This document shows positions 26,445-49,649 of a stretch of 64,000 nucleotides of DNA, in pieces; the stretch's first letter is position 1, and each line of letters begins with the position of its first letter. The position numbers and the translations under genes were made by a program. Source of the DNA: Flagellimonas nanhaiensis (lineage in GTDB: Bacteria > Bacteroidota > Bacteroidia > Flavobacteriales > Flavobacteriaceae); the NCBI RefSeq assembly GCF_003382275.1, contig NZ_QTJX01000002.1:248001-312000 (forward strand), in the 5' to 3' direction. Under the pieces are notes generated by a model. That model was not told the origin of the DNA, ran no database searches, and worked only from the letters and a program-made list of their open reading frames with translations.

Positions 26445-27464
26445 TTAATTAATTGTGGATTCCCTGACCACTAATGTGGGTTCCAAAATTTTTGTTTGGA
26501 ATGTTTCTTCTTCATCTTCGCTCTCTACCTTATCAATCAACATTTGTGCGGAGATTTCACCCATTTTTTCTCCATGTTGCGCTATTACGGTCAGGCTTGG
26601 GTTGGCATACTGTGACAATAATCCGTCAGTAAATCCAATAAAAGATATGTCTTCCGGTATATTCAGGCCTTTATTTTGGACCAGACGCATGCTATAGACC
26701 GTAAATATTTCATTTACGCAAAGGACAGCATCGACATCATTATTTTTGAAGAAATCCTGAATTCCCTGTTCATCCATTTCCATGGTTGAAAGTTTCAATA
26801 TTCTGGATTCATCAATGTCCATTTTACTTTCGAGCAGAGCTTTCTTATATCCTTCGGTCCTAGCTTTACTTACACTTAGGTAATCATCCGTAGTAATCAG
26901 TGCGATTTTCTTTCGACCTTGTTCGATTAATTTCTTGGTAGCGACATAAGCTCCAAGCTCATCATCAATGATTACTTTGTCGCATTCAACCTCATTGGTG
27001 ACTCTATCTACCAGTACCAAAGGAATTCCTTGCTCGGTCACTTCCTTAAGATGATTGTAATCCCCTTTTAATTGGGTCTCTGACGAAAGCGACATGATAA
27101 ACCCATCAATACTTCCGTTGGCCAACATCTCCATATTGATTACCTCCCGGTCAAAGGATTCTTCGGACAGGCAAACAATTACGTTATATCCCTTTGCGTT
27201 TGCATATTTTTCTATTCCCCGAATGACCGTGGTAAAGAAATGGTGTACAATTGCCGGAATAACTACACCTATATTCTTTGTGCGCTTGTTTTTGAGGCTT
27301 ATGGCTATGTTATTGGGCTTATAGTTGTACAGTTTGGCAAAGGCCTGTACCTTTTCTTTTGTATCCCTGCTAATTTCCTCACTATTCTTTAGCGCTTTGG
27401 ACACTGTGGAAATAGAAACCTCCAGCTCTCTAGCAATATCCTTTAATGTAATCTTAGGTTTCAA
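26445..27464 (-). CDS. LacI-family transcriptional regulator
   Basis: A 339-residue regulator with an N-terminal DNA-binding helix-turn-helix and hinge (TLKDIARELEVSISTVSKAL, 5-24; NNIAISLKNKRTKNIGVVIP) and a periplasmic-binding-protein-like sugar domain from residue 62. It stands at the head of the minus-strand operon with GH65 and amylase and diverges from susC. The intergenic region carries a CG-centred palindrome (27729-27742) of the type LacI proteins bind. The effector is probably a maltodextrin or its phosphate product; repressor or activator action cannot be decided from sequence. Confidence 0.92.
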   Translation of the reverse strand: MKPKITLKDIARELEVSISTVSKALKNSEEISRDTKEKVQAFAKLYNYKPNNIAISLKNKRTKNIGVVIPAIVHHFFTTVIRGIEKYANAKGYNVIVCLSEESFDREVINMEMLANGSIDGFIMSLSSETQLKGDYNHLKEVTEQGIPLVLVDRVTNEVECDKVIIDDELGAYVATKKLIEQGRKKIALITTDDYLSVSKARTEGYKKALLESKMDIDESRILKLSTMEMDEQGIQDFFKNNDVDAVLCVNEIFTVYSMRLVQNKGLNIPEDISFIGFTDGLLSQYANPSLTVIAQHGEKMGEISAQMLIDKVESEDEEETFQTKILEPTLVVRESTIN

Positions 27465-27728
27465 AGATGATGGTGTTTGGTCAATGTATTAATCTGGAAA
27501 ATTACTCAATATAGCCAATGGTGAAATTCAAATTAGTTTTTTTAACAAAAAAAAGATAAAAGCTTATGGATTTTACCTATAATCCATTAACATTCTCTTA
27601 GAAAATTAAAAAATGCTATATTAGTGCTGATATTAAGGATTTCACTGATTTGTTGTGTTTAAATTGCGATATAGGCAAATCCCGTCTTTTAGTTTTATTA
27701 ACCTTATATCGTCCCAAAGTTATCAACA

Positions 27729-27742
27729 CGAAACCGTTTTCG
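27729..27742. promoter_or_regulatory. LacI-type operator
   Basis: CGAAACCGTTTTCG is palindromic at 12 of 14 positions around a central CG, the classic LacI-family operator form. It lies 265 bases before lacI and about 117 before susC. Since it is upstream of the candidate susC promoter, the bound regulator might activate rather than block susC. Confidence 0.65.
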
Positions 27743-30800: not shown

Positions 30801-31002
30801 TGGAGAAGGAGCGTTAAAAAGCTTAAGACTTTCCGTTACAGGTCAAAACTTATTCTTAATTACTGATTACAGTGGAATTGATCCCGAAGTAACTGTAAAC
30901 ACTGGTAATTTGAATCAAGCTGCTTTACCAAGTAGATCTATCGACTGGAACAGTTTCCCAAATCCAAGGACGGTAACTTTTGGTATTAACGCATCATTTT
31001 AA
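27859..31002 (+). CDS. susC: SusC/RagA-type TonB-dependent outer-membrane transporter
   Basis: Imports oligosaccharides across the outer membrane with SusD, driven by TonB. The 1047 residues comprise a signal peptide (1-23, cleavage near AKA-QT), a carboxypeptidase-like N-terminal domain (SGTVTDANGPLPGASVLVKG), the TonB box/plug (DEVVIIGYGQ, then NIRGANSVRANNNPLFVVDG) and a 22-strand barrel ending in GINASF. Position opposite lacI-GH65-amylase suggests maltodextrin or starch fragments. Codon choice is strongly biased to GGT, AAC and similar, as in highly expressed genes. susD follows after 19 bases. Confidence 0.95.
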   Translation: MKITLLRSFLLLGAFLCFGLAKAQTVSGTVTDANGPLPGASVLVKGTTNGTQTDFDGNYTLNDIGDSATLVFSYIGYKTVEIAVNGRSTVNVTMEEDAQALDEVVIIGYGQTTVKDATGSVAAVTSEDFNQGVIASPEQLIQGKTAGVNISQSSGEPGAGISVNIRGANSVRANNNPLFVVDGVPLFGQNVDATGSSGTGGDDTSAVGNPLNFLNPNDIESISILKDASATAIYGSRGANGVVIITTKEGRSGAGGVFEYSSNLSIATPVREFDLLDREGFLQAITDSGQNAAGVDFGSSTDWQRVVFRSTASTTQNLSYSQNYGSGNIRASFGYQKQLGVIEKSDFERISGRINWNQRFLDDKLKIGLQGTISRNNRSQPPLQGNAGFRGDILGAAYSANPTIPNSPSVDPGGGLLNPTNYLASASNLTNTNRYLVNGFAEYDFTPELTGKVNLGYDTSDSENVSVLSADLLNINGISDIGAGTFNSRELENKLLEATLSYNKAFDNSNLDVVVGFAYQEFRTFGFNSAARGFASTDLNKMSEDLVQTVTDADASVSGSYQQFYYAPNLTNLTVNRLFPSSNTEVVPFDFNRSVQSLVFDNFDNTDELQSFFGRVNYSLSDKYLFTATMRADGSSRFGPDNQYGYFPSGAFAWKMNEEDFVGDNVSTLKLRLSAGITGNQDGVGYGNFVARQRFATLNLGSIQNNGDVNENGLSIVATPREDLRWEETTDFNIGLDFGFNADRFSGSIDLYRRDTKDILLQTPPPAPSTNPFQFGNVDASVINQGVEVALNYDFIRSDDTNFSANFNISYNDNEIQDFAGSINLGPINGPGLSGAFAQRFEAGQSLFAYYMAIFEGFDGAGNPIYTDIDGNGVGDPDADKTWIGEDGLPDITTGLSLNFSHKNWSISTFLAGQFGFHVYNNTANALFNAGQLNTSRNITTQALAAGENPSASTAVSTRFLEKGDFVRMQNATIGYNVPLSGEGALKSLRLSVTGQNLFLITDYSGIDPEVTVNTGNLNQAALPSRSIDWNSFPNPRTVTFGINASF

Positions 31003-31021: not shown

Positions 31022-32635
31022 ATGAAAAGAAATCAAGTTAAACTTTATGCGATTACCCTCCTTTCGGCAGTGGGACTTGTTTCCTGTACGGATTTGGAGA
31101 TTGAAGAGACTGATTCCTTTATCAGCTCGGATTTTGACGGTCTAGAAAACCCTTCATCCTCAGTAGATCAGTTGTTCAACAACGCCAACGGGAATTTAGG
31201 GGATCAGGCCAACACCTATGCGTTAAGGGAAGTCACTACAGACGCGTTGTTAATCCCTACCCGTGGTGCGGATTGGGGTGATAACGGACGTTGGAGAAAA
31301 TTACACCAGCACGAATGGGGATTGGAAGAAACAGACATCATCACTCCTTTTGACCAATGGAACGCCAACCAATTATTGGCTTCTCAAATTCTGGATACCA
31401 GAAGTAATGCGTCAACAGATGATTTAGGACAGGCACACTTTATGCGAGCCTATTCCATGTGGACTATTCTTGACCTATACGGGCAGGTTCCGTTTAGAGA
31501 TACTCAGCTACCTTCCATATCCATCCCTGAGGTGTTGACTGGAGCAGCTGCTGTAGACTTTATTATAGCTGACCTTGATGCCGCTATTCAGGAATTGCCA
31601 ACTGTTGCTGCCGGAAACGGTGGACAGTTGAACAGAGCTTGTAAAGCATCAGCTAGGTTTTTAAAAGCTAAAGTACTTTTGAATCGTCATATTTATGACA
31701 CCCAGCTTACTGGTGGTGGTGGAACTCCAAATGGAGCAGACATGGCCTCTGTGATATCATTGGTTGACGAAATAGCTGCTGACGGTTTTGCCTTGCAGGC
31801 CGGATACTTTGATCTTTTTAGAAATACCGATGATAACGAAACCATTTGGTGGGCAGAAACAGGTGTAGGAAACCGTATTTGGAACGGACTACACTATAAC
31901 TTGACCACTCCTGAGCAAGCTGGTGGTTGGAACGGTTTCAGTACGTTGGCTGAGTTCTACGACCTTTTTGAAGGTGACCCAAACAGCAACCACCCAGGAA
32001 GCGGACAAGAAGAACGTAGAGGTTTTGTTCCTCTTGAAGGAGAGCCAGCTGGTGCCGATGGAACAGTAGACAATAACAATGATGGCATCGCTGATGGATC
32101 TAACATTGGATTTGGTTTCCTAATGGGACAACAATATGGTCCTGATGGATCTATCATAGAAGACAGACAAGGTAACCCATTGTTCTTCTCAAGAGAATTT
32201 GTTGATGGTGACGGAAATGCAAACCTAATCAACAATGACGAGAAAACCGGTATCCGTGTATTGAAGTATACCCCACGTTACGGAGGTTTCACAAACCACA
32301 GTGTTCAGTTCAGATACTCTGATGCTCACTTGATGAAAGCAGAGGCTCAAATGCGCAGTGGCGGTGACCCGACAGCTTTGGTCAATGAACTTCGTGCAGT
32401 ACGTGGTGCTACTCCACTAGGAACTGTAGGTGAAGCTGAACTTTTGGATGAAAGAGCTAGAGAACTTTTCATTGAAGGTTGGAGACGTAACGATATGATT
32501 CGTTTTGGTCAATACCTAAGAGGATGGGAGTTTAAAGGTGGAACGGAAACCGGTAACGACACGAGATTGTTGTTCCCTATTCCACTACCACAAGTTTTGG
32601 CTAACCCTAACTTAGTTCAGAACCCAGGATACTAA
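31022..32635 (+). CDS. susD: SusD/RagB-family substrate-binding lipoprotein
   Basis: Caps SusC on the cell surface and binds the oligosaccharide. The 537 residues start with a lipoprotein signal (VGLVSC, lipid Cys near 22) and show the TPR-like helical SusD fold: GQAHFMRAYSMWTILDLYGQVP, then KASARFLKAKVLLNR, and a C-terminal DERARELFIEGWRRNDMIRF typical of the family. A perfect hairpin terminator follows, so susC-susD forms one transcript. No SusE/F or surface GH13 gene follows, which is unusual for a starch locus. Confidence 0.94.
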   Translation: MKRNQVKLYAITLLSAVGLVSCTDLEIEETDSFISSDFDGLENPSSSVDQLFNNANGNLGDQANTYALREVTTDALLIPTRGADWGDNGRWRKLHQHEWGLEETDIITPFDQWNANQLLASQILDTRSNASTDDLGQAHFMRAYSMWTILDLYGQVPFRDTQLPSISIPEVLTGAAAVDFIIADLDAAIQELPTVAAGNGGQLNRACKASARFLKAKVLLNRHIYDTQLTGGGGTPNGADMASVISLVDEIAADGFALQAGYFDLFRNTDDNETIWWAETGVGNRIWNGLHYNLTTPEQAGGWNGFSTLAEFYDLFEGDPNSNHPGSGQEERRGFVPLEGEPAGADGTVDNNNDGIADGSNIGFGFLMGQQYGPDGSIIEDRQGNPLFFSREFVDGDGNANLINNDEKTGIRVLKYTPRYGGFTNHSVQFRYSDAHLMKAEAQMRSGGDPTALVNELRAVRGATPLGTVGEAELLDERARELFIEGWRRNDMIRFGQYLRGWEFKGGTETGNDTRLLFPIPLPQVLANPNLVQNPGY

Positions 32636-32666
32636 GAAATACTTCTCATATTATATTATTTAATAG

Positions 32667-32696
32667 TAAGAGCCTGTTCGTTTGAACAGGCTCTTA
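32667..32696 (+). terminator. Rho-independent terminator after susD
   Basis: TAAGAGCCTGTTC pairs perfectly over 13 bases with GAACAGGCTCTTA around a GTTT loop. It separates susCD from the following lipoprotein operon. Confidence 0.88.
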
Positions 32697-32908
32697 TCAT
32701 TTATAGTTACTAGTAAATAGTTGCAAAACCACGAAAATATCATCTTCATTATATCACTTTTTCATGCCAAAACACTAGATTTCTTCACATGAAGGGAACC
32801 ATATTCCTTTGAAAGATTAATCAAAAGTTAATGATCAGTCTTCTCTCCTTCATTTGCTTTATTCTTTTTCTTGGTTTACCTATCTTCACCCACATACATA
32901 GCTTCTCT

Positions 32909-35900
32909 ATGAAAAGGGAAAATCTCATAGTCATCATAATTTGTTTTCTTTTTATTGCTTGTCAAAAAAAGTCTCCTGCCCTATTCACAGACCTTTCTGC
33001 TGAACAGACCCATATTGACTTTCAAAATAAATTGACCAACACTCCCGAGCTAAACATCTTAACATATTTATATTATTATAATGGTGCTGGAGTGGCTGCT
33101 GCTGACTTTAACAATGATGGCCTTGTTGACCTTTTCTTCACAGGAAACCAGGTTCAAGATGAACTATACCTCAACCTTGGACAAATGAAATTTAAAAAGG
33201 TTACGGAACAAGCAGGAATAGCCGTCTCCAATAGCTGGTCAACCGGAGTAAGCCATGTAGACATAAACAATGACGGTCTTTTGGATCTTTATATATGTAA
33301 AGCCTCAGGGTATCGCTCGCTTCAAGGAAAGAATTTATTGTACATCAACCAAGGTGTAAATGCTGACGGTATTCCCATCTTTAAAGAGCAAGCGGAAGCC
33401 TATGGTCTGGATTTTTCTGGATTGAGCACCAAAGCTTCTTTTTTCGATTATGACCTAGATGGGGATTTGGACATGTATTTGATGAACCATTCCGTGCATC
33501 CGAACAGAACCTACGGTAGAGGTTCTCAACGCAAACAACGCGATTCCATTTCCGGTGATATTCTATATCAAAATCAACAGGGGCGATACGTTGATGTCAG
33601 CCAAAATGCCGGAATCTTCCAAGGAAAATCCGGATACGGGCTTGGACTATCCATCGGGGATGTAAATAACGACCAATATCCCGACATTTATGTGGGCAAT
33701 GATTTTTTCGAAAATGACTATCTGTATATCAACCAAAAAGACGGAACTTTTGAAGAAGTAATCTCCAAGGATAATGAAAAGTTGGGGCACACCACCCATT
33801 TTTCTATGGGAAATACCATAGCCGACATGAACAACGATGGCCTTCTGGACATCATCTCCCTGGACATGCTACCGGAAGACATGGAAACCTACAAAACCTC
33901 CGGACTTGAGTATGCTTTTCCAATATACCAACAGTACCTCAGAAATGGATATGCACCCCAATACATGCAAAATACCTTCTTGCTCAACCTAGATGGCACC
34001 CATTTTTCAGAAATTGGCTCTTTGAGTGGCATTTCCGCATCAGAATGGTCATGGAGTGCATTGGCCGCTGATTTTGACTCGGATGGTTACAAGGACATAT
34101 TCATATCAAATGGTATCAAAGGCGCCACCAACGATATGGATTACATGAACTTCATTGCCAATGAAGATATTCAGCGCCGTATCGATGCGGGCATGAAAAA
34201 AACGGATTTGCCCTTGGTTCAGGAAATCCCCGAAAAGAAAGTGCCCAATTACTTTTTTAAGAACAATGGGGACCTTTCGTTTGAAAATGTCACCGAAACA
34301 TGGTTCAAAAGCAAACCGAGCTTTAGCAATGGATGTGTATATGCCGATTTGGATAACGACGGTGATCTGGACATTATAGTTAATAATGTAAACGAGGTGG
34401 CATCGATTTTAGAAAATCAATCTAATGAAAACAACTATATAAAGTTCGGCTTTGAAGGCCCCTCTCAAAACACCTCAGGTATCGGTGTTAAAGCAGTTGT
34501 CTTTACCGGCACTAGAATATTTCAAAGTGAAAATTTTCCTCATCAGAGTTACCTTTCATCATTACCTCTCAACATCCACCTTGGTTTAGGAAAAGTAGCT
34601 GAATTGGATTCAGTAAAAATTATTTGGCCTGATGGTAAGCTTCAGACGTTGACAGAAGTCGCCACAGATACACTACTAAAAGTCTCGTATAAGAATGCCA
34701 CCTTTAAAACTCCGAATAAGGCAAATCGAACACAGCTATGGGCCGTTAACGACACACTTGTAGATTTTACTCATGATGAACAGTTTTCTTTAGATTTTGA
34801 TAGAGAACCCCTAATCCCCTATGCGAACTCTAATGAAGGCCCCAGCATTTCAGTTGGCGATTTAAATGGAGATGGTCTGGAAGACATTTTTGTGGGAGGA
34901 GCCAAAGGACAAAGCAATTCTATATTCCATCAAACCTCTCAAGGAGAATTTCAAAAAGATGAAGCCACTGATTTTTCACCTTCAAAAACCAACGAAGTAA
35001 CAGCAAGCGTCCTTTTTGATGCTGATGGTGACGGCATCAAAGATCTATTGGTTGCAAGTGGAGGCAACGAATTTACAATAGGGAAACCATTACAGCCCAT
35101 TCTCTATATAAATAGAAATGGAGTTCTTAAGCCAAAGCAAAATGCTTTCAAAAGTATTGAAACCAATGCCTCAATGATCAAGACCGTAGACTTTGATCAG
35201 GACGGAGATTTGGACATCTATATTGTTTCTGATCGAGTTCCCGGAGCATTTGGAAAAACACCAAAACAATATCTCCTCATTAATGATGGTCGCGGAAATT
35301 TTGAAGATCAGACCAAAAAACTGGCACCTCAACTAGAGTATTTCGGCAATATAAAAGCAATAGAGTGCGTGGATATCAACGCTGATGGCAGACAAGACTT
35401 GGTTGTAGTTGGGCATTGGATTCCCATTTCTATTTTTATACATGATGGCTCCCAATTAAGATTACAGGAAAACAACGGATTGAAAGACACCAATGGTTGG
35501 TGGAACTCGGTTCACGTGAATGATTTTGATAAGGATGGAGACCTCGATTTGGTTTGTGGGAACTGGGGCTTGAATACCAAGTTTAAAGCTTCGTTGGAGC
35601 AACCAATCACTTTATATAGAAATGATTTCGATGGAAACGGGTCCGTGGAGCCTCTGGTCACCTACTATTATCAGGGCATTGAAACACCATTTGCCTCCAA
35701 AGATGAGCTGACCAAACAAATACCACAACTGAACAAAGAATTCCTTTCCTATAAAAAATTTGCCCAGGCATCGTTACAAAATCTATTTGGAAATGAACAA
35801 TTGAAGGATGCAGACCAGAAATATGTTTATGAACTGGAAACAGCATACTTCAAAAACAACGGACAGGGTGTGTTCAAAAAACATTCCATGCCAGTGATAG

Positions 35901-36205
35901 CACAAGCATCCCAGACCAACGACATTATGGTGGATGATTTCAACAAAGATGGATACGCAGACTTATTGATTATTGGGAACAATTACCACATTAACACTCA
36001 ATTGGGCAGACAAGACGCTTTTCATGGATTAATTCTAGAAAATAATACCAAAGGTGGTTTCATATGGAATGCCAACCATTCGGTTGGATTAAATGGTGTT
36101 TCCAGAACCGTAAAAAAAATAAACACAAAAGGCCAGACTCGCTATTTGATTGGTCGAAACAATCAAAGATTAACCGTACTACAACAAAAACAAGATCAAA
36201 AATGA
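32909..36205 (+). CDS. FG-GAP/VCBS-ASPIC (UnbV) lipoprotein, paralogue 1
   Basis: A 1098-residue surface-directed lipoprotein. ATG 32909 gives MKRENLIVIIICFLFIAC with lipid Cys 18; an ATG 26 codons earlier (32831) adds a second hydrophobic stretch and is less likely. Blocks of FG-GAP/VCBS repeats, each with calcium-binding loops such as DFNNDGLVD, DINNDGLLD and DYDLDGDLD, form a probable beta-propeller (about 60-500), then an ASPIC/UnbV domain (about 522-592; LGLGKVAELDSVKIIWPDG) and a second propeller (about 650-1050). The family is common next to SusCD in Flavobacteriia; its ligand is unknown. The stop overlaps the next start (ATGA). Confidence 0.9.
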   Translation: MKRENLIVIIICFLFIACQKKSPALFTDLSAEQTHIDFQNKLTNTPELNILTYLYYYNGAGVAAADFNNDGLVDLFFTGNQVQDELYLNLGQMKFKKVTEQAGIAVSNSWSTGVSHVDINNDGLLDLYICKASGYRSLQGKNLLYINQGVNADGIPIFKEQAEAYGLDFSGLSTKASFFDYDLDGDLDMYLMNHSVHPNRTYGRGSQRKQRDSISGDILYQNQQGRYVDVSQNAGIFQGKSGYGLGLSIGDVNNDQYPDIYVGNDFFENDYLYINQKDGTFEEVISKDNEKLGHTTHFSMGNTIADMNNDGLLDIISLDMLPEDMETYKTSGLEYAFPIYQQYLRNGYAPQYMQNTFLLNLDGTHFSEIGSLSGISASEWSWSALAADFDSDGYKDIFISNGIKGATNDMDYMNFIANEDIQRRIDAGMKKTDLPLVQEIPEKKVPNYFFKNNGDLSFENVTETWFKSKPSFSNGCVYADLDNDGDLDIIVNNVNEVASILENQSNENNYIKFGFEGPSQNTSGIGVKAVVFTGTRIFQSENFPHQSYLSSLPLNIHLGLGKVAELDSVKIIWPDGKLQTLTEVATDTLLKVSYKNATFKTPNKANRTQLWAVNDTLVDFTHDEQFSLDFDREPLIPYANSNEGPSISVGDLNGDGLEDIFVGGAKGQSNSIFHQTSQGEFQKDEATDFSPSKTNEVTASVLFDADGDGIKDLLVASGGNEFTIGKPLQPILYINRNGVLKPKQNAFKSIETNASMIKTVDFDQDGDLDIYIVSDRVPGAFGKTPKQYLLINDGRGNFEDQTKKLAPQLEYFGNIKAIECVDINADGRQDLVVVGHWIPISIFIHDGSQLRLQENNGLKDTNGWWNSVHVNDFDKDGDLDLVCGNWGLNTKFKASLEQPITLYRNDFDGNGSVEPLVTYYYQGIETPFASKDELTKQIPQLNKEFLSYKKFAQASLQNLFGNEQLKDADQKYVYELETAYFKNNGQGVFKKHSMPVIAQASQTNDIMVDDFNKDGYADLLIIGNNYHINTQLGRQDAFHGLILENNTKGGFIWNANHSVGLNGVSRTVKKINTKGQTRYLIGRNNQRLTVLQQKQDQK

Positions 36206-39200
36206 AAGAATTTGCATCAATGACAATCGCTATACTTTTGCTTTTTTCGTCATGTAACAATGAAGAGAAGCAAAAGGAAAATGAAGCATCGAAGCAAACA
36301 CTTTTTACGCTTCTAACCCCTGAAGAATCTGGAGTTACTTTCGTCAACAAGGTAGAAAACCAGAAAGACTTCAATATTTTCAAGTATCGTAATTTTTACA
36401 ATGGAGGTGGAGTCGCCCTCGGAGATATCAACAATGACGGGCTGGTGGATATTTACCTCACCGGTAACATGGAACCAAACAAGCTCTATTTAAACAAGGG
36501 TAATCTTACTTTCGAAGATATTACTGAAAAAGCTGGTGTTGGAGGCAACAAACCATGGTCCACAGGTGTAGTTATGGTCGACATCAATGCTGATGGACTT
36601 TTGGACATTTATGTTAGTAATGCGGGAAATTTAGAAGGAAACAATCACGACAATGACCTCTACATCAACAATGGGGATTTAACTTTTACCGAAAAAGCGC
36701 ATGAATATAATTTGGCCAAAACAGGTTTCTCAACCCATGCCTCATTTTTTGATTATGACAAAGACGGGGATTTGGATGCCTATATTTTGAACAACAGCAA
36801 CATTCCTGTAAGCAGTTTAGGATATGCAGAGCAACGCGAGGTTCGTGCCCAAGATTGGGAAGGAGTCCCCCATATTTTCAGGGGCGTGGGTGATATGCTT
36901 CTGCGAAACGACAATGGAAAATTTGTTGATGTTAGTGAGGATGCGGGCATTTATGGCAGTCTCATCGGTTTTGGCTTGGGAGTTTTGGTCACCGACATCA
37001 ATGAGGACTCCTACCCGGATATTTATGTATCAAACGATTTTTACGAGCGGGACTACCTTTACATCAACCAAAAAGATGGTACGTTCACTGAAGAAATAAA
37101 GAACTATACTTCTCATTTAAGTCTTTCCGCAATGGGTATTGATATAGCGGATATCAACAACGACGGGTACAATGATATTTTTATCACCGATATGCTCCCA
37201 GAACCTGAAGAGCGTGTAAAATCTGTTATGGAATTTGAAGGGTATAATATCTTCGATTTGAAGCAAAGCAAAGATTTCTACCAGCAGTATATCCAAAACA
37301 CGCTGCAATTGAACAATGGCAACGGCTCCTTTTCCGAAGTAGCTTACTATAGCGGTATAGATGCAACCGATTGGAGTTGGGCGGGACTTATGTTCGATAT
37401 GGATAATGATGGGCTCAAAGATATTTTTGTGACCAACGGCATCAATCATGACCTGACAGATTTAGATTTTGTGGATTTCTTTGCCAACGAGATTATACAA
37501 AAAATGGCACTTACCGGAAAAAAAGAGTCCATAGACTCCATTATCAGTAAGATGCCAATAAAACCTCAACCCAACTACGCCTACAAAAACAACGGGGACA
37601 TTACATTTAAAAATGCGAACAAGGAATGGGGCTTTGAACTACCTACGCGTTCCAATGGAGCTGCTTATGCGGATTTGGACAACGATGGCGACTTGGATTT
37701 GGTCATTAACAATGTCAACACCGAAACCTTTGTGTATCGAAACAACGCCAACAACCTCGACAACAATTATGTTCAACTTAAGCTCATTGGCGAAGATCAA
37801 AACCCGTTCGCGGTAGGAGCATTGGTTAAATTCTATTTTGGGGACAACATTATTAATCAAGAATTGATTCCCTCACGAGGCTTTCAATCCTCTATTGATT
37901 ATACCATGACCCTTGGCCTGGGTAAACATCAAAAACTGGACTCCATCAGAGTGGTATACCCTAACGACAAAACTGTGCTGCTTACCAATGTAAATTCCAA
38001 TCAACTTATAACATTAAAACAGGAAGAAGCTACAGAAACCTACATTCCTGGATTGGGTGCATCAACAGTTTCCCCTCTTTTAACGGAAGTCAGTAACACA
38101 AGTTTTACCGAACACAAAGAAAACAGCTACAACGATTTTGATTATGAAGGCCTTATCTACAAAAAGCTTTCCCAAGAGGGGCCGGCCTTGGCTGTTGGAG
38201 ACATCAACGGAGATGGAAATGAAGATATCTTTGTCGGTGGTGCCAAAGGAAGTGCCGGTTTCATCTACAAACACAATGGAAATGGAAAGTTTTCCCTCAG
38301 CAGGCAACGTATTTTTGAAAATGATCAAAACTTTGAAGATACTGCTGCTGCCTTTTTAGATGCTGATGGTGATGGGGATTTGGACTTAATGGTAGGATCT
38401 GGTGGAAATGAATTTGCTCAGGAACAACAATACAGGACACGATTATATCTGAACGATGGAAAAGGAAACTTTTCTGCTTCAGGACAGCTTTTACCCTCCA
38501 CTTTTAAAAATGTTTCCACTATCTCCCCTACCGATTTTGATCAAGACGGAGATCCAGACGTGTTCATAGGATCAAGAAGTGTTGTGGGGATATACGGTTT
38601 AGACCCAAACCATATGTTTCTTGAAAACCGGGACGGCGTATTTGTGGATGTTACCGAACGTCGTGGTTATGACCTAAAAAATGAAGGAATGGTCACCAAA
38701 GCAATATGGGCCGATTTAGATGGAGACCAAAAAGAAGATCTCATTACGGTTACGGAATGGGGAACGCCAAAAATCTACAAAAACTCTGGAAGAAGAATTT
38801 CAAAAATAGATAGCTCCCTAGACAGTCTTCATGGCTGGTGGAACACAGTTGAAGCTAAAGATTTGGACAAAGATGGTGACTTGGACCTTATTCTTGGTAA
38901 CCAAGGTGAAAACCTCCACTACAGACCAGAAGAAGGACACCCCATGAAACTATGGATCAATGATTTTGATAATAACGGAACCATTGAACAAATCGTGACA
39001 TTGCATAAAAATGGCAAGGATTATCCCATTCATCAGAAAAAAGAACTGACGGGACAGCTTGTTTCGCTAAAAAAGCAAAATTTAAAGGCTTCAGATTACG
39101 CCAGACGCAGTATTCAAGAGCTTTTCCCAACCGAAATCATGGAACAATCCATTGTGAAGCAAAGTTCTATTTCATCTTCTGTAATCGCCATCAATGAAGG

Positions 39201-39543
39201 TGGAGGAAAATTCACTATTAAAAGGCTTCCAGCTAGGGCGCAGTTCAGTTGTATCTGCGGAATTGCCTGTGCAGATGTAAATAAGGACGGTAATCTGGAT
39301 TTGATCATGGCTGGGAACAACTTTGAATTTAAACCACAGTTCTCCAGGTTGGATGGTAACTACGGAAATGTACTTCTCGGAGACGGAGCATTTAACTTTG
39401 AATGGACCAATTATGATGAAAGTGGCTTTTTTATCAGAGAAGAAGTAAAGCACTTAGGGTTGATTAAGGATAAAAATGGGAAACAGTTCATTGTAGCTGC
39501 CATTAATGATGGAAAACCAAAAATATTTGCCATTGATGAATAG
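36202..39543 (+). CDS. FG-GAP/VCBS-ASPIC (UnbV) lipoprotein, paralogue 2
   Basis: A 1113-residue paralogue of its two neighbours with the same order: lipoprotein signal (ILLLFSSC, Cys 18), first FG-GAP block (GDINNDGLVDIYLTGN, DINADGLLDIYVSN and further loops), ASPIC/UnbV (about 535-605; RGFQSS...LGLGKHQKLDSIRVVYP) and second FG-GAP block (GDINGDGNEDIFVGGAKG and others). ATG 36202 is chosen because it overlaps the preceding stop as ATGA and gives a good signal peptide; in-frame sequence upstream lies inside paralogue 1. Calcium-stabilised adhesion or glycan binding is inferred from the fold only. Confidence 0.9.
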   Translation: MKEFASMTIAILLLFSSCNNEEKQKENEASKQTLFTLLTPEESGVTFVNKVENQKDFNIFKYRNFYNGGGVALGDINNDGLVDIYLTGNMEPNKLYLNKGNLTFEDITEKAGVGGNKPWSTGVVMVDINADGLLDIYVSNAGNLEGNNHDNDLYINNGDLTFTEKAHEYNLAKTGFSTHASFFDYDKDGDLDAYILNNSNIPVSSLGYAEQREVRAQDWEGVPHIFRGVGDMLLRNDNGKFVDVSEDAGIYGSLIGFGLGVLVTDINEDSYPDIYVSNDFYERDYLYINQKDGTFTEEIKNYTSHLSLSAMGIDIADINNDGYNDIFITDMLPEPEERVKSVMEFEGYNIFDLKQSKDFYQQYIQNTLQLNNGNGSFSEVAYYSGIDATDWSWAGLMFDMDNDGLKDIFVTNGINHDLTDLDFVDFFANEIIQKMALTGKKESIDSIISKMPIKPQPNYAYKNNGDITFKNANKEWGFELPTRSNGAAYADLDNDGDLDLVINNVNTETFVYRNNANNLDNNYVQLKLIGEDQNPFAVGALVKFYFGDNIINQELIPSRGFQSSIDYTMTLGLGKHQKLDSIRVVYPNDKTVLLTNVNSNQLITLKQEEATETYIPGLGASTVSPLLTEVSNTSFTEHKENSYNDFDYEGLIYKKLSQEGPALAVGDINGDGNEDIFVGGAKGSAGFIYKHNGNGKFSLSRQRIFENDQNFEDTAAAFLDADGDGDLDLMVGSGGNEFAQEQQYRTRLYLNDGKGNFSASGQLLPSTFKNVSTISPTDFDQDGDPDVFIGSRSVVGIYGLDPNHMFLENRDGVFVDVTERRGYDLKNEGMVTKAIWADLDGDQKEDLITVTEWGTPKIYKNSGRRISKIDSSLDSLHGWWNTVEAKDLDKDGDLDLILGNQGENLHYRPEEGHPMKLWINDFDNNGTIEQIVTLHKNGKDYPIHQKKELTGQLVSLKKQNLKASDYARRSIQELFPTEIMEQSIVKQSSISSSVIAINEGGGKFTIKRLPARAQFSCICGIACADVNKDGNLDLIMAGNNFEFKPQFSRLDGNYGNVLLGDGAFNFEWTNYDESGFFIREEVKHLGLIKDKNGKQFIVAAINDGKPKIFAIDE

Positions 39544-42500
39544 ACCATTCATACTCCTCTTTGTGGTGTTACTTTCGTATTCCTGTCAAAAAGGAGGAAC
39601 ACGTTTTAATACACTTTCCGCTGAAAAGACAGGGGTGGATTTTACCAATACCCTGACGGAATCAGACGACTTGAATATTTTGGACTACCTATATTTCTAC
39701 AATGGTGGAGGTGTGGCAATTGGTGATATTGACAATGACGGGCTGGTCGATATCTTCTTCTCAGGCAATCAGGTAAAGAACAAACTCTATTTGAACAAAG
39801 GAAACCTCAAATTCGAAGATATCACCTCAAATTCCGGCGTGGGTGGCAACAGTAGTTGGAACACCGGTGCAGTAATGGCCGATGTTAACGGTGATGGCTG
39901 GTTGGACATTTATGTTTGCGCCGTAGTTGGAATCAATGGTTTTGGGGGACACAACGAGCTCTATATCAATAATCAAGATGGAACATTCTCCGAAAAAGCA
40001 GCAGCATACGGATTGGATTTTGATTCATACAGTTCCTCTGCCAACTTCTTCGATTATGATTTGGATGGTGATTTGGACCTTTATCTTTTGAATCATGCTG
40101 TACACACCTCCGAATCTTATGGCAAGGCAGACCTCAGGCTCAGAAGAAATTATGAAACCGGAGATAAGCTACTTAGAAACGACAATGGAAAATTTGTTGA
40201 CGTAAGCGAGGAAGCAAGCATCTATGGAGGAATAAATGGGTACGGATTGGGATTGGCCGTTTCCGACCTTAACGTTGATGGTTACCCTGACATCTATGTC
40301 GGGAACGATTTTCACGAGGACGATTATTACTATTTGAATAACGGAGATGGCACTTTCACGGAAAGCCTTCGTACGTATTTTGGTCATACCAGCCGTTTTT
40401 CTATGGGTAATGATGTTGCGGATATCAATCACGACGGACTGCCCGACCTAATTTCCCTTGATATGCTTCCTGACGAGGAAATTCCCCTTAAAGCATCTGA
40501 AGGAGATGATAACATTCAAACCCAAAAACTGCGAATAAAAGAATACGGATATCACTATCAGTTCACCAGAAACATGCTCCATGTCAACCAACCAGATGGT
40601 AGGTTTATTGAAACGGCGCTCATGAGTGGGATAGCTGCAACGGATTGGAGTTGGTCCTCTCTTTTTGGAGATTTTGATCAAGATGGAGAACAAGATCTTT
40701 TTGTGGCCAACGGTATTCCCAAGAGACCAAATGATTTGGATTTCATCAAATTCATATCCAGCAATCAAATCCAAAATAAAATCAACAACACAAAATTGGT
40801 AGATCAGCAGGCCTTGGACATGATGCCGACAGGAATGAGTGCCAACTATATTTTTAAGGGGAAAAACGATTTGACTTTTGAAGATGTCTCTACCCAATGG
40901 ATCTCGCAAGAAATGCTCATCTCTGGTGCATCGGCTTATGGGGATTTAGACAATGATGGTGACTTGGATCTGGTGACCAACAATCTAAACGCTCCTGCCA
41001 CGATTTATGAGAACAAAACCAATGAAAGTGCCAATTACCTAAAAATTAAACTTAGACCCAATAATGGCAACACCCATGGTATTGGAAGCAAAGTCTACGC
41101 TTATACCAACGGCACACTTCAATATAAAGAACTTTTTACCGCACGTGGATTCCAAGCTTCATCGCAACCCATAATCCATTTAGGGCTTGGTGAGGCAACC
41201 AAAGTAGATTCTTTAAAAGTGGTATGGCCAGATAATACTTTTCAAGTATTACGGAATATTGAAGCAAACCAAGAATTATCGATTACTCCTGAAAACCCAA
41301 AGACCTATACCTATCCCAACCAAGAGAATTCCACATCTCCAATGTTTAAAGCAGTTGATGGAAATCTTGGAATTCAATTCACCCATGTTGAAGACAATTA
41401 TCTGGATTTTAATCGGGAAAAACTGATTCCCTATAAAGTCTCCGACAGGGGTCCTGCATTGGCTGTGGGCGATCTAAATGAAGATGGAAAAGACGATTTG
41501 CTTTTTGGCGGCTCCAAATTTATTCCTGTAAAGGTTTTCATCCGCCAGGACAGTACTTTTGCTGAACAGGAATATCCCGAGATTTCTGAGGAAGCAATAA
41601 AAGAGCAAGTCTCTGCCAGTATCGCCGATTTTAATGGAGACAACAAAAATGATATCATATTGACCTCAGGAGGTGGTGATTTTTTAGGGCAATCTAAGGC
41701 CCTAACGGACACATATCTGGTAAAAACAGATTCGGCGTATTCCCTTCGAGCATTTCCTGAAATATTTCAGAACGCATCTGTGGTAAAACCTTATGATTAT
41801 GATAATGATGGTGATCTGGACCTTTTCATTGGGGGACACACGGAGACAGGAAAGTTTGGCAAAACTGTCCCTTCCATGCTTTTGGAAAATACAAATGGGG
41901 AGTTTTCAATAAACCCATCCTTTGCCGCAGTAAAAGGAATGGTCACTGATGCGGTTTGGAGTGATTTTGATGGGGACGGACAGACCGATCTAATAGTTGT
42001 TGGGGAATGGATGTCGCCCATCTTCCTTAAAAATGATAAGGGCACCTTTAGGAAGACTGCCTCTTTGGCAATTACCGGTCTATGGCAAGCTATTCATCCT
42101 TTCGATATAGATGGAGATGGTGATCAGGACTATTTACTTGGAAACTGGGGAACAAATTCAAAGTTCAATGCTACACAAAAGCAGCCTGTCAAAATGTATG
42201 TAGATGACTTTGATAAAAATGGACAGACGGAAACGGTCATTGCCCTACCAAAAAATGGAAAGTATTATCCCCTTGAAGGGTTGGATGCATTGTCTGCCCA
42301 AATGGTGTTTTTGCGCAAAAGTTTTAACACCTATACCTCCTTTGCGGGCAAAACGGTTGACGAGGTTTTTGGGAAAGAGAAATTGGCCAAAGCAGACCTT
42401 CTGGAAATAAATACTTTGCAATCTGGCTATCTCCAAAACAACAATGGAAGCTTTAGCTTTGTCCCGTTCAAAAATGAGTTGCAGGTAGCCCCTATAATGG

Positions 42501-42772
42501 CGTTTGTAACTCATGATTTTGATGGGGACGGAAAAACAGAGGTCTTGGCGGGAGGTAATTACTTTGGAGTGAAACCCTATCACGGACGATTCGATTCCTT
42601 TCCCGGAGCGTTGATTAAATCCGAGAAAAATATAATTTTAGGAAACCAACTTGGGTTGAATTTTACCCAAAAGTCTTTACGGCACCTGCATATATTGAAA
42701 ATCGATTCAGCGAGCTATTTGCTCGCAGTTTTCAACGATGCGGCCGCCGAAACCTATCAAATACTAAACTGA
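39536..42772 (+). CDS. FG-GAP/VCBS-ASPIC (UnbV) lipoprotein, paralogue 3
   Basis: The third paralogue, 1078 residues. ATG 39536 starts MNRPFILLFVVLLSYSC (Cys 17) and overlaps the end of paralogue 2 by 8 bases. The domain order repeats: FG-GAP block with GDIDNDGLVDIFFSGN, DVNGDGWLDIYVC and DYDLDGDLDLYLLN; ASPIC/UnbV (about 515-590; RGFQASSQPIIHLGLG, VDSLKVVWPDN); second block with GDLNEDGKDDLLFGG and DIDGDGDQDYLLGNWG. The haloperoxidase-like gene follows after 15 bases. Overlap and equal length of the three suggest they act as a set. Confidence 0.9.
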   Translation: MNRPFILLFVVLLSYSCQKGGTRFNTLSAEKTGVDFTNTLTESDDLNILDYLYFYNGGGVAIGDIDNDGLVDIFFSGNQVKNKLYLNKGNLKFEDITSNSGVGGNSSWNTGAVMADVNGDGWLDIYVCAVVGINGFGGHNELYINNQDGTFSEKAAAYGLDFDSYSSSANFFDYDLDGDLDLYLLNHAVHTSESYGKADLRLRRNYETGDKLLRNDNGKFVDVSEEASIYGGINGYGLGLAVSDLNVDGYPDIYVGNDFHEDDYYYLNNGDGTFTESLRTYFGHTSRFSMGNDVADINHDGLPDLISLDMLPDEEIPLKASEGDDNIQTQKLRIKEYGYHYQFTRNMLHVNQPDGRFIETALMSGIAATDWSWSSLFGDFDQDGEQDLFVANGIPKRPNDLDFIKFISSNQIQNKINNTKLVDQQALDMMPTGMSANYIFKGKNDLTFEDVSTQWISQEMLISGASAYGDLDNDGDLDLVTNNLNAPATIYENKTNESANYLKIKLRPNNGNTHGIGSKVYAYTNGTLQYKELFTARGFQASSQPIIHLGLGEATKVDSLKVVWPDNTFQVLRNIEANQELSITPENPKTYTYPNQENSTSPMFKAVDGNLGIQFTHVEDNYLDFNREKLIPYKVSDRGPALAVGDLNEDGKDDLLFGGSKFIPVKVFIRQDSTFAEQEYPEISEEAIKEQVSASIADFNGDNKNDIILTSGGGDFLGQSKALTDTYLVKTDSAYSLRAFPEIFQNASVVKPYDYDNDGDLDLFIGGHTETGKFGKTVPSMLLENTNGEFSINPSFAAVKGMVTDAVWSDFDGDGQTDLIVVGEWMSPIFLKNDKGTFRKTASLAITGLWQAIHPFDIDGDGDQDYLLGNWGTNSKFNATQKQPVKMYVDDFDKNGQTETVIALPKNGKYYPLEGLDALSAQMVFLRKSFNTYTSFAGKTVDEVFGKEKLAKADLLEINTLQSGYLQNNNGSFSFVPFKNELQVAPIMAFVTHDFDGDGKTEVLAGGNYFGVKPYHGRFDSFPGALIKSEKNIILGNQLGLNFTQKSLRHLHILKIDSASYLLAVFNDAAAETYQILN

Positions 42773-42787
42773 TTAAAAAGAAATACG

Positions 42788-44131
42788 ATGAAAAAAGTTG
42801 GAGCATTACTATGTATGGTGTTGTTGATCACCGTCTCATGCCAAAAAGCAAATGAACCCATTGTAATTACCCCGGATGATTACCACGGTTCCGTGGACAA
42901 GGTCACCGAGGTTATGATTCATGATATTTTCTCCCCGCCCGTAGCCAGTAGAATATATGCTTATCCAAACATTGCTGCATATGAGATTTTGGCCAAGAAA
43001 AATGAAGGATATCAATCTCTTCAAAATCAGTTGAAGGAACTTAGCGGAATTCCAGACCCTGAAACCGCTGAAAACCTAAACTATGAACTAGCGGCATTAA
43101 TAGCCCATATTGACATGAACAGGAGGTTGATATTTTCCGAAGATCGGATTAACTCGTACCGTGACAGCCTATACACTATTTGGGAAGACATGAATGAAAA
43201 TGAGTTTGCTATCTCCAAGAAGTATGGCCTTCAGGTCTCGGAACATATTGCCCAATGGATGGATAAGGATAATTACAAACAGACCCGAACAATGCCCAAG
43301 TTTACGGTTAATTCGGAAGACCCATCTAGATGGCAGCCCACACCTCCTTCTTATATGGACGGCATTGAACCACACTGGAGCAAAATAAGAGCATTTGTAA
43401 TTGATTCGGCGGCTCAATTTAAACCAACTCCACCACCACCCTTTTCTATGGAGGAAGGCTCAGATTTCTACAAAGAAGTCAGAGAGGTCTATGATATCAG
43501 TAATGAAATCACCGCTAAAGGAGACGAATCGGAAGAAGTGGAAATTGCAAAATTTTGGGATTGCAATCCTTATGTTTCGGTTACACGGGGCCATTTAATG
43601 TTTGCAACAAAAAAAATTACCCCTGGCGCACACTGGATCGGCATAGCCAAAATAGCCACAAAAAAAACAGATTCCGATTTCGACAAGACCGTTTATGCCT
43701 ATACCAAAACCTCAATTGCCATTGCAGATGCTTTCATAAGCTGTTGGGATGAAAAATACCGTAGTAATCTTATCAGGCCAGAAACATTGATCAATGAACA
43801 TATAGACGATAGCTGGGAGCCTGTGTTGCAAACACCTCCCTTTCCGGAATACACTAGCGGACATAGTGTGGTTTCAGGCGCTGCATCGGTAGCTTTGACC
43901 AGCATTTTTGGAAGTGATTTTGCTTTTGATGATGATACTGAGGTACCCTATGGACTTCCTGTCCGTTCGTTTACATCTTTTTATGAAGCAGCTGATGAAG
44001 CCGCCATCAGCAGAATGTACGGTGGTATCCATTACAGAGCTGCGGTTGAAATTGGCGTAAAGCAAGGGAGAGATCTTGGTAAATTTGTGGTTGATAATTT
44101 AAGTATGTCCACAACCACCCAAACACAATAA
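42788..44131 (+). CDS. vanadium-dependent haloperoxidase/PAP2-family lipoprotein
   Basis: A 447-residue lipoprotein (LLITVSC, Cys 18) of the PAP2/vanadium-chloroperoxidase superfamily. The three vanadate/phosphate-binding blocks are near the C-terminus: IRPETLI (about 329-335), YTSGHSVVSGAA (about 355-366) and SRMYGGIHYRAA (about 407-418) with the axial or catalytic histidines. The enzyme could oxidise halides with peroxide or act as an acid phosphatase; sequence motifs do not decide this. It ends the ASPIC operon, 15 bases after paralogue 3, and precedes a GyrI-like gene by 9 bases. Extracytoplasmic anchoring fits surface chemistry. Confidence 0.85.
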   Translation: MKKVGALLCMVLLITVSCQKANEPIVITPDDYHGSVDKVTEVMIHDIFSPPVASRIYAYPNIAAYEILAKKNEGYQSLQNQLKELSGIPDPETAENLNYELAALIAHIDMNRRLIFSEDRINSYRDSLYTIWEDMNENEFAISKKYGLQVSEHIAQWMDKDNYKQTRTMPKFTVNSEDPSRWQPTPPSYMDGIEPHWSKIRAFVIDSAAQFKPTPPPPFSMEEGSDFYKEVREVYDISNEITAKGDESEEVEIAKFWDCNPYVSVTRGHLMFATKKITPGAHWIGIAKIATKKTDSDFDKTVYAYTKTSIAIADAFISCWDEKYRSNLIRPETLINEHIDDSWEPVLQTPPFPEYTSGHSVVSGAASVALTSIFGSDFAFDDDTEVPYGLPVRSFTSFYEAADEAAISRMYGGIHYRAAVEIGVKQGRDLGKFVVDNLSMSTTTQTQ

Positions 44132-44140
44132 AATTAGTAA

Positions 44141-45043
44141 ATGAAGAAAGTCATTTATGCCGTCCTTTTCTTAGTTGTTGGCGGACTCATTTGGTACCTA
44201 TTTCTGAAACCTTCCGATTATATTGTTCGGTTTCAGGCGAGTACCTTTCCGGGGGCCATAAATCAAACTTTAAAGTTGTGGGACCAAAGTGTGGAAACCG
44301 TATCAAATATTGAACAGCAGGGCGATTTATACCATTTGGAGCAAAAGTTGAAATTCGGAGATTCCATTCATCACTATCATTGGAGCATTGAACCCTTAAC
44401 AGATTCCACTTCAAAGGTTACGGTTCGTATTTCAGATGAAGACCATAGTCTCAAAAACAAGATAAATATTCCATTTGGGGATACGAATTTTGAAAAGAGG
44501 TCCAGGCGCACCGTTTTGGATTTTATGGAAAATCTTCGGGAACATACAAAGAAATTTAAGGTCACCATTGTTGGAGAGGAAGAAATTCCTTCCAAATACA
44601 TTGCCTACATTCCAGTTAAGGTTACGCAATTTCAGAAGGCAGGAGGTATGATGAAAAATTTCTCTTATCTAACCGGTGAGCTAATAAGTCGGGGAGCACA
44701 GTTAGATGGCCTTCCCATTGTGGAAGTGACCAAATGGGACATGCAGAACGATAGTTTGTATTACAATTTTGGCCAGCCCATAATACGTTCTGAAAAACTT
44801 CCTATTGGCACTGATATTGAGTACAAACGAATTTTCTCCAAGAAGGCCCTGAAGGCCATATACAATGGAAATTACATTACCTCGGACCGAGCTTGGTATG
44901 CCTTGATGGACTATGCCAAAAAGAACAATATTGAGGTAGAAAACACCCCGGTAGAAGTCTTTCATAACAATCCTCATGTGGGTGCTGACGAGCTCAACTG
45001 GAAAGCTGAAATATACTTGCCCATTAAAGAACCCAATGAATAA
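44141..45043 (+). CDS. membrane-anchored SRPBCC/GyrI-like effector-binding protein
   Basis: A 300-residue protein with one N-terminal transmembrane helix (about 4-22), a probable SRPBCC-like region (about 30-150; polyketide-cyclase style FPGAINQTLKLW) and a C-terminal AraC-effector-binding/GyrI-like domain (about 150-295; PVEVFHNNPHVGADELNWKA). It has no DNA-binding domain, so a ligand-binding or small-molecule hydrolase role at the outer face of the inner membrane is more likely than regulation. It follows the haloperoxidase-like gene by 9 bases and overlaps the next gene by 8 bases. Confidence 0.75.
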   Translation: MKKVIYAVLFLVVGGLIWYLFLKPSDYIVRFQASTFPGAINQTLKLWDQSVETVSNIEQQGDLYHLEQKLKFGDSIHHYHWSIEPLTDSTSKVTVRISDEDHSLKNKINIPFGDTNFEKRSRRTVLDFMENLREHTKKFKVTIVGEEEIPSKYIAYIPVKVTQFQKAGGMMKNFSYLTGELISRGAQLDGLPIVEVTKWDMQNDSLYYNFGQPIIRSEKLPIGTDIEYKRIFSKKALKAIYNGNYITSDRAWYALMDYAKKNNIEVENTPVEVFHNNPHVGADELNWKAEIYLPIKEPNE

Positions 45044-45929
45044 GTTCTGCTTCATATTGACAGTCTTGTTCTTTCTTGAGGGGTGCGGGCAATCCCAACA
45101 TGGCGACTTGGATTTTTTGGGAAAGTTTCCTTCCAGATTAAAGGAAGTGTCTGGAATGGAAACCGATGGTAGTACTTTTTGGGTAATTCAAGACAGTGGC
45201 AACAAGGACAAAATATTTAAGGTGGACAAAAAGGCCCAAGTTTCAAATGAATACAAAATACACCATGCCAAAAACGAAGATTGGGAAGATTTAACCCTGG
45301 ACAAGAAGGGCAACCTCTACATTGGGGATTTTGGGAACAATAACAATGCGAGAAAAAATCTTGTGATTTACAAAATAGATAGTTCCCAACTGCATAAGAA
45401 AGAGCCGGCTGCCAAAAAAATTAAGTTCAAATACCCGCAGCAACATAAATTTCCCCCAAAAAAGGACAGCCTACTTTTTGATACCGAAGCCTTTTTTCAC
45501 TGGAACGATTCGCTCTATCTATTTACCAAAAACAGAACCAGACCTTATTCGGGTCGCACATTGATCTATAGGGTTCCGGATAAGAAGGGGGAATATGATG
45601 CAGAGTATCTAGGATCTATGGTGCTTTGCAAAAACGCAAGTCTGTGTTCTGTCACCGGGGCAGACATTTCTTCAAATGGAAAAACAATTGCACTACTTAC
45701 CTATGGCATGGTCTTTCTAGTCACCGATTTCGAGTTATCTGATTTTTCCAAGGCAAGTGCTGAACTGGTCGATCTAAAGACCAGAACCCAAACCGAATCT
45801 ATTTGTTTTTTGGACGATAACACCTTGCTTATTGCCGATGAGGAAAACAGGGGTACAGGCCGAAATCTTTATTCCTATAGTTTGAAGAAAAAATCAAAAA
45901 CCGAAACCAAGCCCAAAGGCAAACCGTAG
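45036..45929 (+). CDS. lipoprotein with beta-propeller-like repeats, unknown function
   Basis: A 297-residue lipoprotein (FFLEGC, Cys 17). ATG 45036 overlaps the end of the GyrI-like gene by 8 bases. Segments such as WVIQDSGNKDKIFKVD, DWEDLTLDKKGNLYIGDFG and DTEAFFHWNDSLYLFTKNR look like blades of an SMP-30/SdiA-regulated or phytase-like propeller, but I do not recognise a precise family. The basic tail (KKKSKTETKPKGKP) is encoded by bases shared with the end of the opposite-strand barrel gene (45894-45929). Confidence 0.7.
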   Translation: MNKFCFILTVLFFLEGCGQSQHGDLDFLGKFPSRLKEVSGMETDGSTFWVIQDSGNKDKIFKVDKKAQVSNEYKIHHAKNEDWEDLTLDKKGNLYIGDFGNNNNARKNLVIYKIDSSQLHKKEPAAKKIKFKYPQQHKFPPKKDSLLFDTEAFFHWNDSLYLFTKNRTRPYSGRTLIYRVPDKKGEYDAEYLGSMVLCKNASLCSVTGADISSNGKTIALLTYGMVFLVTDFELSDFSKASAELVDLKTRTQTESICFLDDNTLLIADEENRGTGRNLYSYSLKKKSKTETKPKGKP

Positions 45930-49595: not shown

Positions 49596-49649
49596 ATCCA
49601 TAAGGTTGATTCCAAAATTTTGTATTTTGGATGGTTCAAAGTACTATCT

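Follow-up and report, generated by a model that had tools for sequence, protein, structure and literature searches.

A 64,000-nucleotide stretch of the Flagellimonas nanhaiensis genome (hereafter the window) carries four consecutive genes, which we call A, B, C and V. The first three encode large FG-GAP/ASPIC lipoproteins and V encodes a lipoprotein of the vanadium iodoperoxidase type. The original prediction, made from the letters of the window, had singled out these four genes; they are part of a larger unit that includes SusC, SusD, the downstream genes G and S, a LacI-family regulator, and GH65 and GH13 enzymes (Table 1). We read this unit as a Sus-like outer-membrane system for glycan capture and import, probably of an alpha-glucan or alpha-glucoside, equipped with CRTAC1-like proteins and an iodoperoxidase, and give this reading a probability of roughly 0.55. 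The Sus-type nature of the uptake part is well supported by gene anatomy, and as to the substrate class we lean towards alpha-glucans or alpha-glucosides.

The SusCD unit and its putative regulator

The unit holds a SusC/SusD pair above the TIGR04056 and PF07980 cut-offs, with GH13 and GH65 genes co-located. The LacI, GH65 and GH13 genes (U1-U2-U3) run divergently from SusC, and 273 bases separate the end of SusD from A. SusC, SusD, a GH13 lipoprotein, GH65, LacI and accessory lipoproteins right after SusD are all shared with Sus-type polysaccharide utilisation loci. The difference lies in the place of SusE and SusF, which is occupied here by up to three ASPIC/FG-GAP proteins of ~1100 residues, and in a vanadium haloperoxidase that is part of the set.

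We compared the window with eight further loci of the same genus. All nine aligned loci carry the palindrome CGAAACCGTTTTCG in the interval separating LacI from SusC, inverted in one (L205). In its 15-base form the predicted operator occurs as a sole exact copy in the window and in the genome, and a slightly looser pattern gives three sites genome-wide. A LacI homologue (85-92% identical) adjoins SusC in 8/8 further loci, and a GH13 (U3) homologue stands in the divergent run behind LacI in the same 8/8; this GH13 gene is spread over two frames in L204 (L204:3-1594; frameshift or sequencing error) and cut by the stretch end in L205. SusD gave a match in 22 same-genus genomes, and in 21 of them the homologue immediately precedes A or B. 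The pieces are on separate contigs in the 22nd (G252), and in G267 an opposite-strand carrier gene sits between SusD and A. A tree of 48 SusDs groups the window SusD with SusDs that precede B in several families; the same clade also holds the SusD of L064, which stands beside LacI and GH65, and a few others.

Table 1. Features of the SusCD/ASPIC/haloperoxidase unit, in window positions.
Feature	Positions	Strand	Basis
U3: GH13 alpha-amylase-family lipoprotein	22213..24081	-	PF00128, PF02806, lipobox; catalytic motifs by eye
U2: GH65 family enzyme	24078..26381	-	NF010380, 1171.8 bits (cut-off 838)
U1: LacI-family regulator	26445..27464	-	sequence match; 85-92% identical same-genus neighbours
Predicted LacI-type operator ACGAAACCGTTTTCG, between U1 and SusC	27728..27742	+	palindrome conserved in same-genus loci
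SusC/RagA TonB-linked outer-membrane transporter	27859..31002	+	TIGR04056, 715.5 bits (cut-off 368)
SusD/RagB lipoprotein	31022..32635	+	PF07980 above cut-off; lipobox
Hairpin (14 bp) following SusD, resembling an attenuator or terminator but lacking a clean T run	32666..32697	+	z -5.6
A: two-propeller FG-GAP/ASPIC lipoprotein, 1098 aa	32909..36205	+	open reading frame, Pfam, lipobox
B: two-propeller FG-GAP/ASPIC lipoprotein, 1113 aa	36202..39543	+	open reading frame, Pfam, lipobox, AlphaFold model
C: two-propeller FG-GAP/ASPIC lipoprotein, 1078 aa	39536..42772	+	open reading frame, Pfam, lipobox, AlphaFold model
V: vanadium-dependent iodoperoxidase-type lipoprotein, 447 aa	42788..44131	+	4cit match, E 1.7e-228; 71.5% identity
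G: GyrI-like domain protein, hydrophobic N-terminus, 300 aa	44141..45043	+	PF06445 barely above cut-off
S: possible lipoprotein, weak DUF6929/NHL matches	45036..45929	+	

Haloperoxidases, ASPIC proteins and sugar genes

A V profile matched 52 of 247 Bacteroidota genomes at 1e-20. We examined 154 V loci, comprising a first set of 80 (the best, by similarity to V, of at least 586 matches) and a second set of 74 from the Bacteroidota genome matches listed, which takes in weak matches only in part. The loci were picked by V similarity and are not a random sample of haloperoxidases. Seven under 300 bits were left out of the counts, leaving 147 strong loci in which Zobellia uliginosa is counted twice (L044 and L120, being in both sets). 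First-set loci reach 10 kilobases upstream of V, with SusCD and distant neighbours often beyond view. Neighbour families were assigned by Pfam and NCBIfam on one to three members each and extended to the others through BLAST clusters.

A same-strand ASPIC gene lies less than 300 bases upstream of V in 106 of the 147 strong loci (68/80 in the first set and 38/67 in the second, the 38 spanning nine Bacteroidota families). The ASPIC gene is further upstream in another 16, and two contigs are too short. We do not take this adjacency for chance, because ASPIC domains of any kind are confined to 41 of the 99 genomes sampled, with 1 to 11 copies in each of these. The order SusC-SusD-ASPIC-V, with a single ASPIC gene, was found in 12 loci from four families, and in seven first-set loci a gene of 526-571 codons sits between SusD and B. 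Further downstream, the G cluster recurs in 77 and the S cluster in 64 of the 154 loci.

Several of the recurrent neighbours are sugar genes. A GH65 cluster stands beside V in 15 loci; two of its members, each belonging to the shorter type, were scanned and score above the curated cut-off for kojibiose hydrolase (NF053734); GH37 trehalase (nine loci), GH97 (five) and GH13-like (four) clusters also occur, as do symporters with a weak sucrose-symporter match (14 loci). At least one of these glycosidases is present in 23/122 loci with ASPIC upstream and in 2/25 without. We had considered a sodium/iodide symporter for the 550-residue neighbour in L017. We read it as a sugar carrier, since its nearest match is the sodium/glucose cotransporter 2xq2 (E 1.6e-235) and the sodium/iodide cotransporter scores far worse (3.6e-24).

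Four further ASPIC genes are present in the window's own genome. One belongs to a SusC-x-ASPIC-GH92-carrier-GH130-GH92-GH92 locus with x in the SusD place, another to a SusC-SusD-x-arylsulfotransferase-like-ASPIC locus (arylsulfotransferase-like gene L212:11432-12820), and a third lies beside a GH26/SusCD locus on the opposite strand. Because these genes too are in or beside SusC operons, the large ASPIC lipoproteins look like a general SusCD accessory in place of glycan-binding proteins. The fourth is a fusion of 1374 residues on another contig (L213:9833-13957, equal to G000:C17:55835-59956), which combines FG-GAP/ASPIC, DUF6851, a VCPO helical-bundle match below cut-off and a type IX secretion system tail. 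The beginning of this protein resembles CRTAC1 in sequence (E 6.8e-12); further on it resembles solved vanadium haloperoxidases (best E 1.2e-5; 4cit 4.3e-4). The haloperoxidase half was found at 19 places, spread over 17 of the 247 genomes; it is ASPIC-fused at two (own genome and G226) and has an adjacent same-strand ASPIC gene at five. Since V adjoins ASPIC genes and this second type is fused or adjacent to them, two haloperoxidase subfamilies, distant by sequence, are tied to ASPIC proteins, one also by fusion. A bolder and rather unlikely extension is that ASPIC proteins are general physical partners of bacterial vanadium haloperoxidases and dock the enzyme at SusCD, with hydrogen peroxide from feeding on alpha-glucans yielding hypoiodous acid and the fusion representing the covalent form. 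If true, the cell would use the hypoiodous acid made on the spot to capture iodine, keep out competitors or react with the ligand.

The strongest competing explanation is that the locus acquires iodine or other halogen: V would make hypoiodous acid or molecular iodine, ASPIC proteins and SusCD would bind and import iodine or iodinated organics, and the sugar genes nearby would do no more than yield hydrogen peroxide by oxidising sugar. The grouping of V with a Zobellia iodoperoxidase fits this, as does Arenibacter sp. C-21, whose hydrogen peroxide-dependent accumulation of iodine requires glucose, oxygen and calcium (PMC5064120); the calcium need would fit the calcium loops of the ASPIC proteins. 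Without glucose, uptake by C-21 works given a system that generates hydrogen peroxide or oxidises iodide, and at least five 4USZ homologues are encoded in the C-21 genome (PMC5064120). That study tied no gene to the phenotype, and the B-C-V order was seen in three other Arenibacter genomes (L041, L048 and L076). By analogy, the C-21 requirements fit an enzyme fed by sugar-derived hydrogen peroxide with calcium-dependent partners. Iodine acquisition as the purpose of the whole locus nevertheless appears doubtful to us, given that ASPIC genes sit in SusC operons without V (L199, L200, L203, L211 and L212) and that the recurrent neighbours that were identified are sugar genes.

Other neighbours stand apart from the sugar theme. 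At 49584-50843 the window encodes an HD-domain protein whose C-terminus is of the PycTM (Pycsar effector) type. Its cluster recurs, next to a gene for a 1235-residue metallophosphatase, in 51 of the 154 V loci, which suggests a stable neighbour more than a defence island. Two genes follow ASPIC-V in six loci of family f24 (L179, L180, L181, L183, L184 and L185), whose L179 members match HmuY (weakly, under cut-off) and PaaA/PaaC (strongly), a possible oxidative partner set. At L140:9221-11123, an AhpC/TSA-like protein and a protein with a sub-threshold copper-monooxygenase match lie between SusD and the single ASPIC gene before V.

Proposed pairing and predicted structure of the ASPIC lipoproteins

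Open reading frame coordinates bear out the predicted four-gene layout, with a 4-base A/B overlap, an 8-base B/C overlap and a 15-base gap from C to V. Longer alternative starts exist at 32831, 36064 and 39506, and the starts in Table 1 yield lipoprotein signals; a lipobox, called by our own pattern rather than SignalP, is present in A, B, C and V, as had been proposed. Residues after the lipobox cysteine are merely loosely rich in D, E and K. The description of A, B and C as paralogues with two propellers and an ASPIC domain agrees with Pfam, which finds 8-9 FG-GAP_3 (PF13517) stretches and one ASPIC domain (PF07593) above cut-off in each, and with a mutual identity of 38-40% over nearly full length. 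The proposed calcium-binding loops are likewise borne out by sequence motif: each protein has 12-13 copies of D-x-[DN]-x-[DN]-G against a mean of 0.24-0.36 in shuffled sequence.

The gene order is conserved, as had been expected. We typed 91 loci with any A, B or C type and at least 9 kilobases upstream of V (11 of the 147 loci fell short of this length): 42 have A+B+C before V, 34 B+C, five A+B, five C alone, three A+C and two A alone. B and C thus occur together in 76 of 91, and A is present in 52 and absent from 39. Two gene trees, one of 153 leaves and one larger, were built. B (support 1.0) and C (0.99) form separate clades common to several families and extending beyond Flavobacteriaceae. 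The A clade has a support of 0.96 in the 153-leaf tree vs 0.31 in the larger one, making the A counts less certain than those for B and C. In one Eudoraea assembly, gene A is split over two frames (L020:102-3385; frameshift or sequencing error).

With start codons fixed by an in-house lipobox rule, B and C overlap by exactly 8 bases in 50 of 67 loci. The A-to-B overlap is 4 bases in only 6 of 38, and the C-to-V junction is highly variable. B and C distances correlate at 0.92 across 32 loci (partial r 0.70 given two flanking control genes), the divergent loci L066 and L025 being excluded; with these outliers kept the value is 0.96-0.98 and is driven by them. Because the clades are old and separate, the 8-base overlap is kept and the distances correlate, the sequences favour a partnership of B and C, to which A is an addition, over a fixed trimer. 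Three same-genus loci with B alone behind LacI-SusCD (L199, L200 and L203) speak against an obligate pair. The suggestion of a hetero-oligomer made in fixed ratio therefore survives in part: the old B/C pair and its overlap agree with it, and a three-protein A:B:C complex of fixed ratio is rejected by the absence of A from 39 of 91 typed loci.

The same evidence bears on duplication. A merely recent tandem duplication, the case raised against the original prediction, does not agree with separate B and C clades across families, a kept overlap and correlated distances. That A, B and C are instead tandem copies retained for dosage, with no distinct roles, is improbable: their mutual identity and the many loci in other families with one ASPIC gene before V would suit it, but B and C are old clades in the same order across families, their overlap is exact in most loci and the two usually occur together.

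AlphaFold models of B and C are of moderate confidence (predicted local distance difference test 73 and 76). In the C model, residues 21-587 match CRTAC1 (PDB 9etn) with Z 41.3, 457 aligned residues and a root-mean-square deviation of 2.4, far above other matches, and the best Foldseek match of the B model is also CRTAC1. An N-terminal propeller and an ASPIC domain are therefore the predicted common ground with CRTAC1 and bacterial ASPIC/UnbV proteins; the proteins studied here differ in an extra seven-bladed propeller of ~480 residues, in being lipoproteins and in an identity of only 22% to CRTAC1. This second propeller (C residues 598-1078) resembles many seven-bladed propellers in the model. 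A likeness to aldos-2-ulose dehydratase (Z 26-27) was considered, and we claim no enzyme activity for this propeller, because other seven-bladed propellers score equally or higher (for example, LGI1 EPTP, Z 30).

V as a probable iodoperoxidase and the locus as a whole

V fits its earlier description as a haloperoxidase-like PAP2 lipoprotein: it has the PAP2 domain and groups with a solved vanadium iodoperoxidase of Zobellia, 4cit/4usz, which we take to be Zg-VIPO1, a paralogue distinct from vIPO3. The Zobellia enzymes, in Fournier's work of 2014, are said to oxidise iodide only. The 71.5% identity to 4cit extends over 435 residues and includes all 12 active-site columns compared (among them K, R, S-G-H, R and H), whose choice and numbering we presume to be correct. 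None of the 147 strong V proteins departs from K, R, H, R and H at the active site. In the PAP2/haloperoxidase superfamily, the sites for vanadate and for phosphate overlap. For these reasons of identity and active-site conservation, V leans clearly towards a peroxidase rather than a phosphatase; action as a PAP2-fold phosphatase on a phosphorylated sugar or lipid, which would suit the overlapping sites and domain calls that give PAP2 only by Pfam and nothing by NCBIfam, is the least probable alternative.

4USZ is a vanadium iodoperoxidase of Zobellia galactanivorans (PMC5064120), and vIPO3 of the same species is raised on Ascophyllum (PMC9296495). Z. uliginosa has the gene order A-B-C-V-G-S (L044), as in the window, and its V protein shares 98.4% identity with 4cit across 436 residues. 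The Zobellia iodoperoxidase differs in being known as a lone enzyme, its surrounding gene set not being described in the literature searched; more broadly, SusCD-ASPIC-haloperoxidase loci were not described among the matches listed in the open-access literature, most subscription papers lying outside it. The earlier statement that no function is established for the set still holds for A, B and C; V has a close solved relative.

We propose the following arrangement for the Sus-like system. U1 would repress SusCD and also A-V, the latter through read-through past the hairpin or an own promoter. A, B and C would be surface lipoproteins around SusCD that replace SusE and SusF and hold ligand through their CRTAC1-like propellers, with B and C paired, probably as a heterodimer, and A optional. 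V would be a surface or periplasmic vanadium iodoperoxidase that contacts the ASPIC proteins and oxidises iodide with hydrogen peroxide arising at the feeding site, either from sugar oxidation or from an algal host. The resulting hypoiodous acid could protect the feeding site, react with the ligand, or be part of a route that removes hydrogen peroxide and captures iodine. Of these, iodine capture driven by hydrogen peroxide or defence is a candidate for the role of V that we think less likely than not.

A number of observations weigh against this reading. Of 23 same-genus genomes in which GH65 gave a match, only 10 have it next to the locus (in some others it is on a different contig), and in L201 an opposite-strand gene separates SusD from A. 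The hairpin after SusD suggests that A-V are possibly transcribed apart from SusCD, and these genes may therefore be expressed below the SusCD level or from their own promoter; scans of the region found no excess of sigma-70 matches (37 vs a mean of 44 in shuffles) or of terminator matches (13 vs 17). In L199, L200 and L203, neither C nor V follows directly behind LacI-SusCD-B, so V appears dispensable to the uptake part. Among the strong V loci, 23 of 147 have no ASPIC gene in the fetched stretch, and 12 of the 19 places of the second haloperoxidase have none fused or adjacent. Alpha-glucoside enzymes are present in only 25 of 147 loci and are of differing kinds, and some Flavobacteriaceae loci adjoin a xylose isomerase, a xylulokinase-like gene and a sodium/glucose-type carrier. 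V distances track those of B and C weakly beyond the controls (partial r 0.36 and 0.38, falling to 0.03-0.05 if the divergent locus L025 is kept).

Behind B in L199, L200 and L203 come a permease, assigned to PF03601 from the L199 copy, and a second LacI-type gene. We also fetched seven loci in which GH65 is located elsewhere: L195, L196 and L208 resemble canonical maltodextrin loci and the other four have no SusC in the stretch. The former three have LacI at 51-52% and SusC at 35% identity and their own SusD where in view, the SusDs of L196 and L208 branching outside the window clade; confirmed members include SusE in L196 and, in L195, a GH13 of the cyclomaltodextrinase type. A division of labour in which SusCD serves only the GH65 half and not A-V was rejected, as SusD stands beside A or B far more consistently than GH65 does.

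On our reading, the locus places the large two-propeller ASPIC lipoproteins in a functional setting for the first time, and its arrangement ties an iodide-oxidising enzyme family to sugar feeding in marine bacteria. For the purpose of iodoperoxidases in marine Bacteroidota, the SusCD-locus setting and the natural fusion together provide a concrete hypothesis that is testable by knock-outs.

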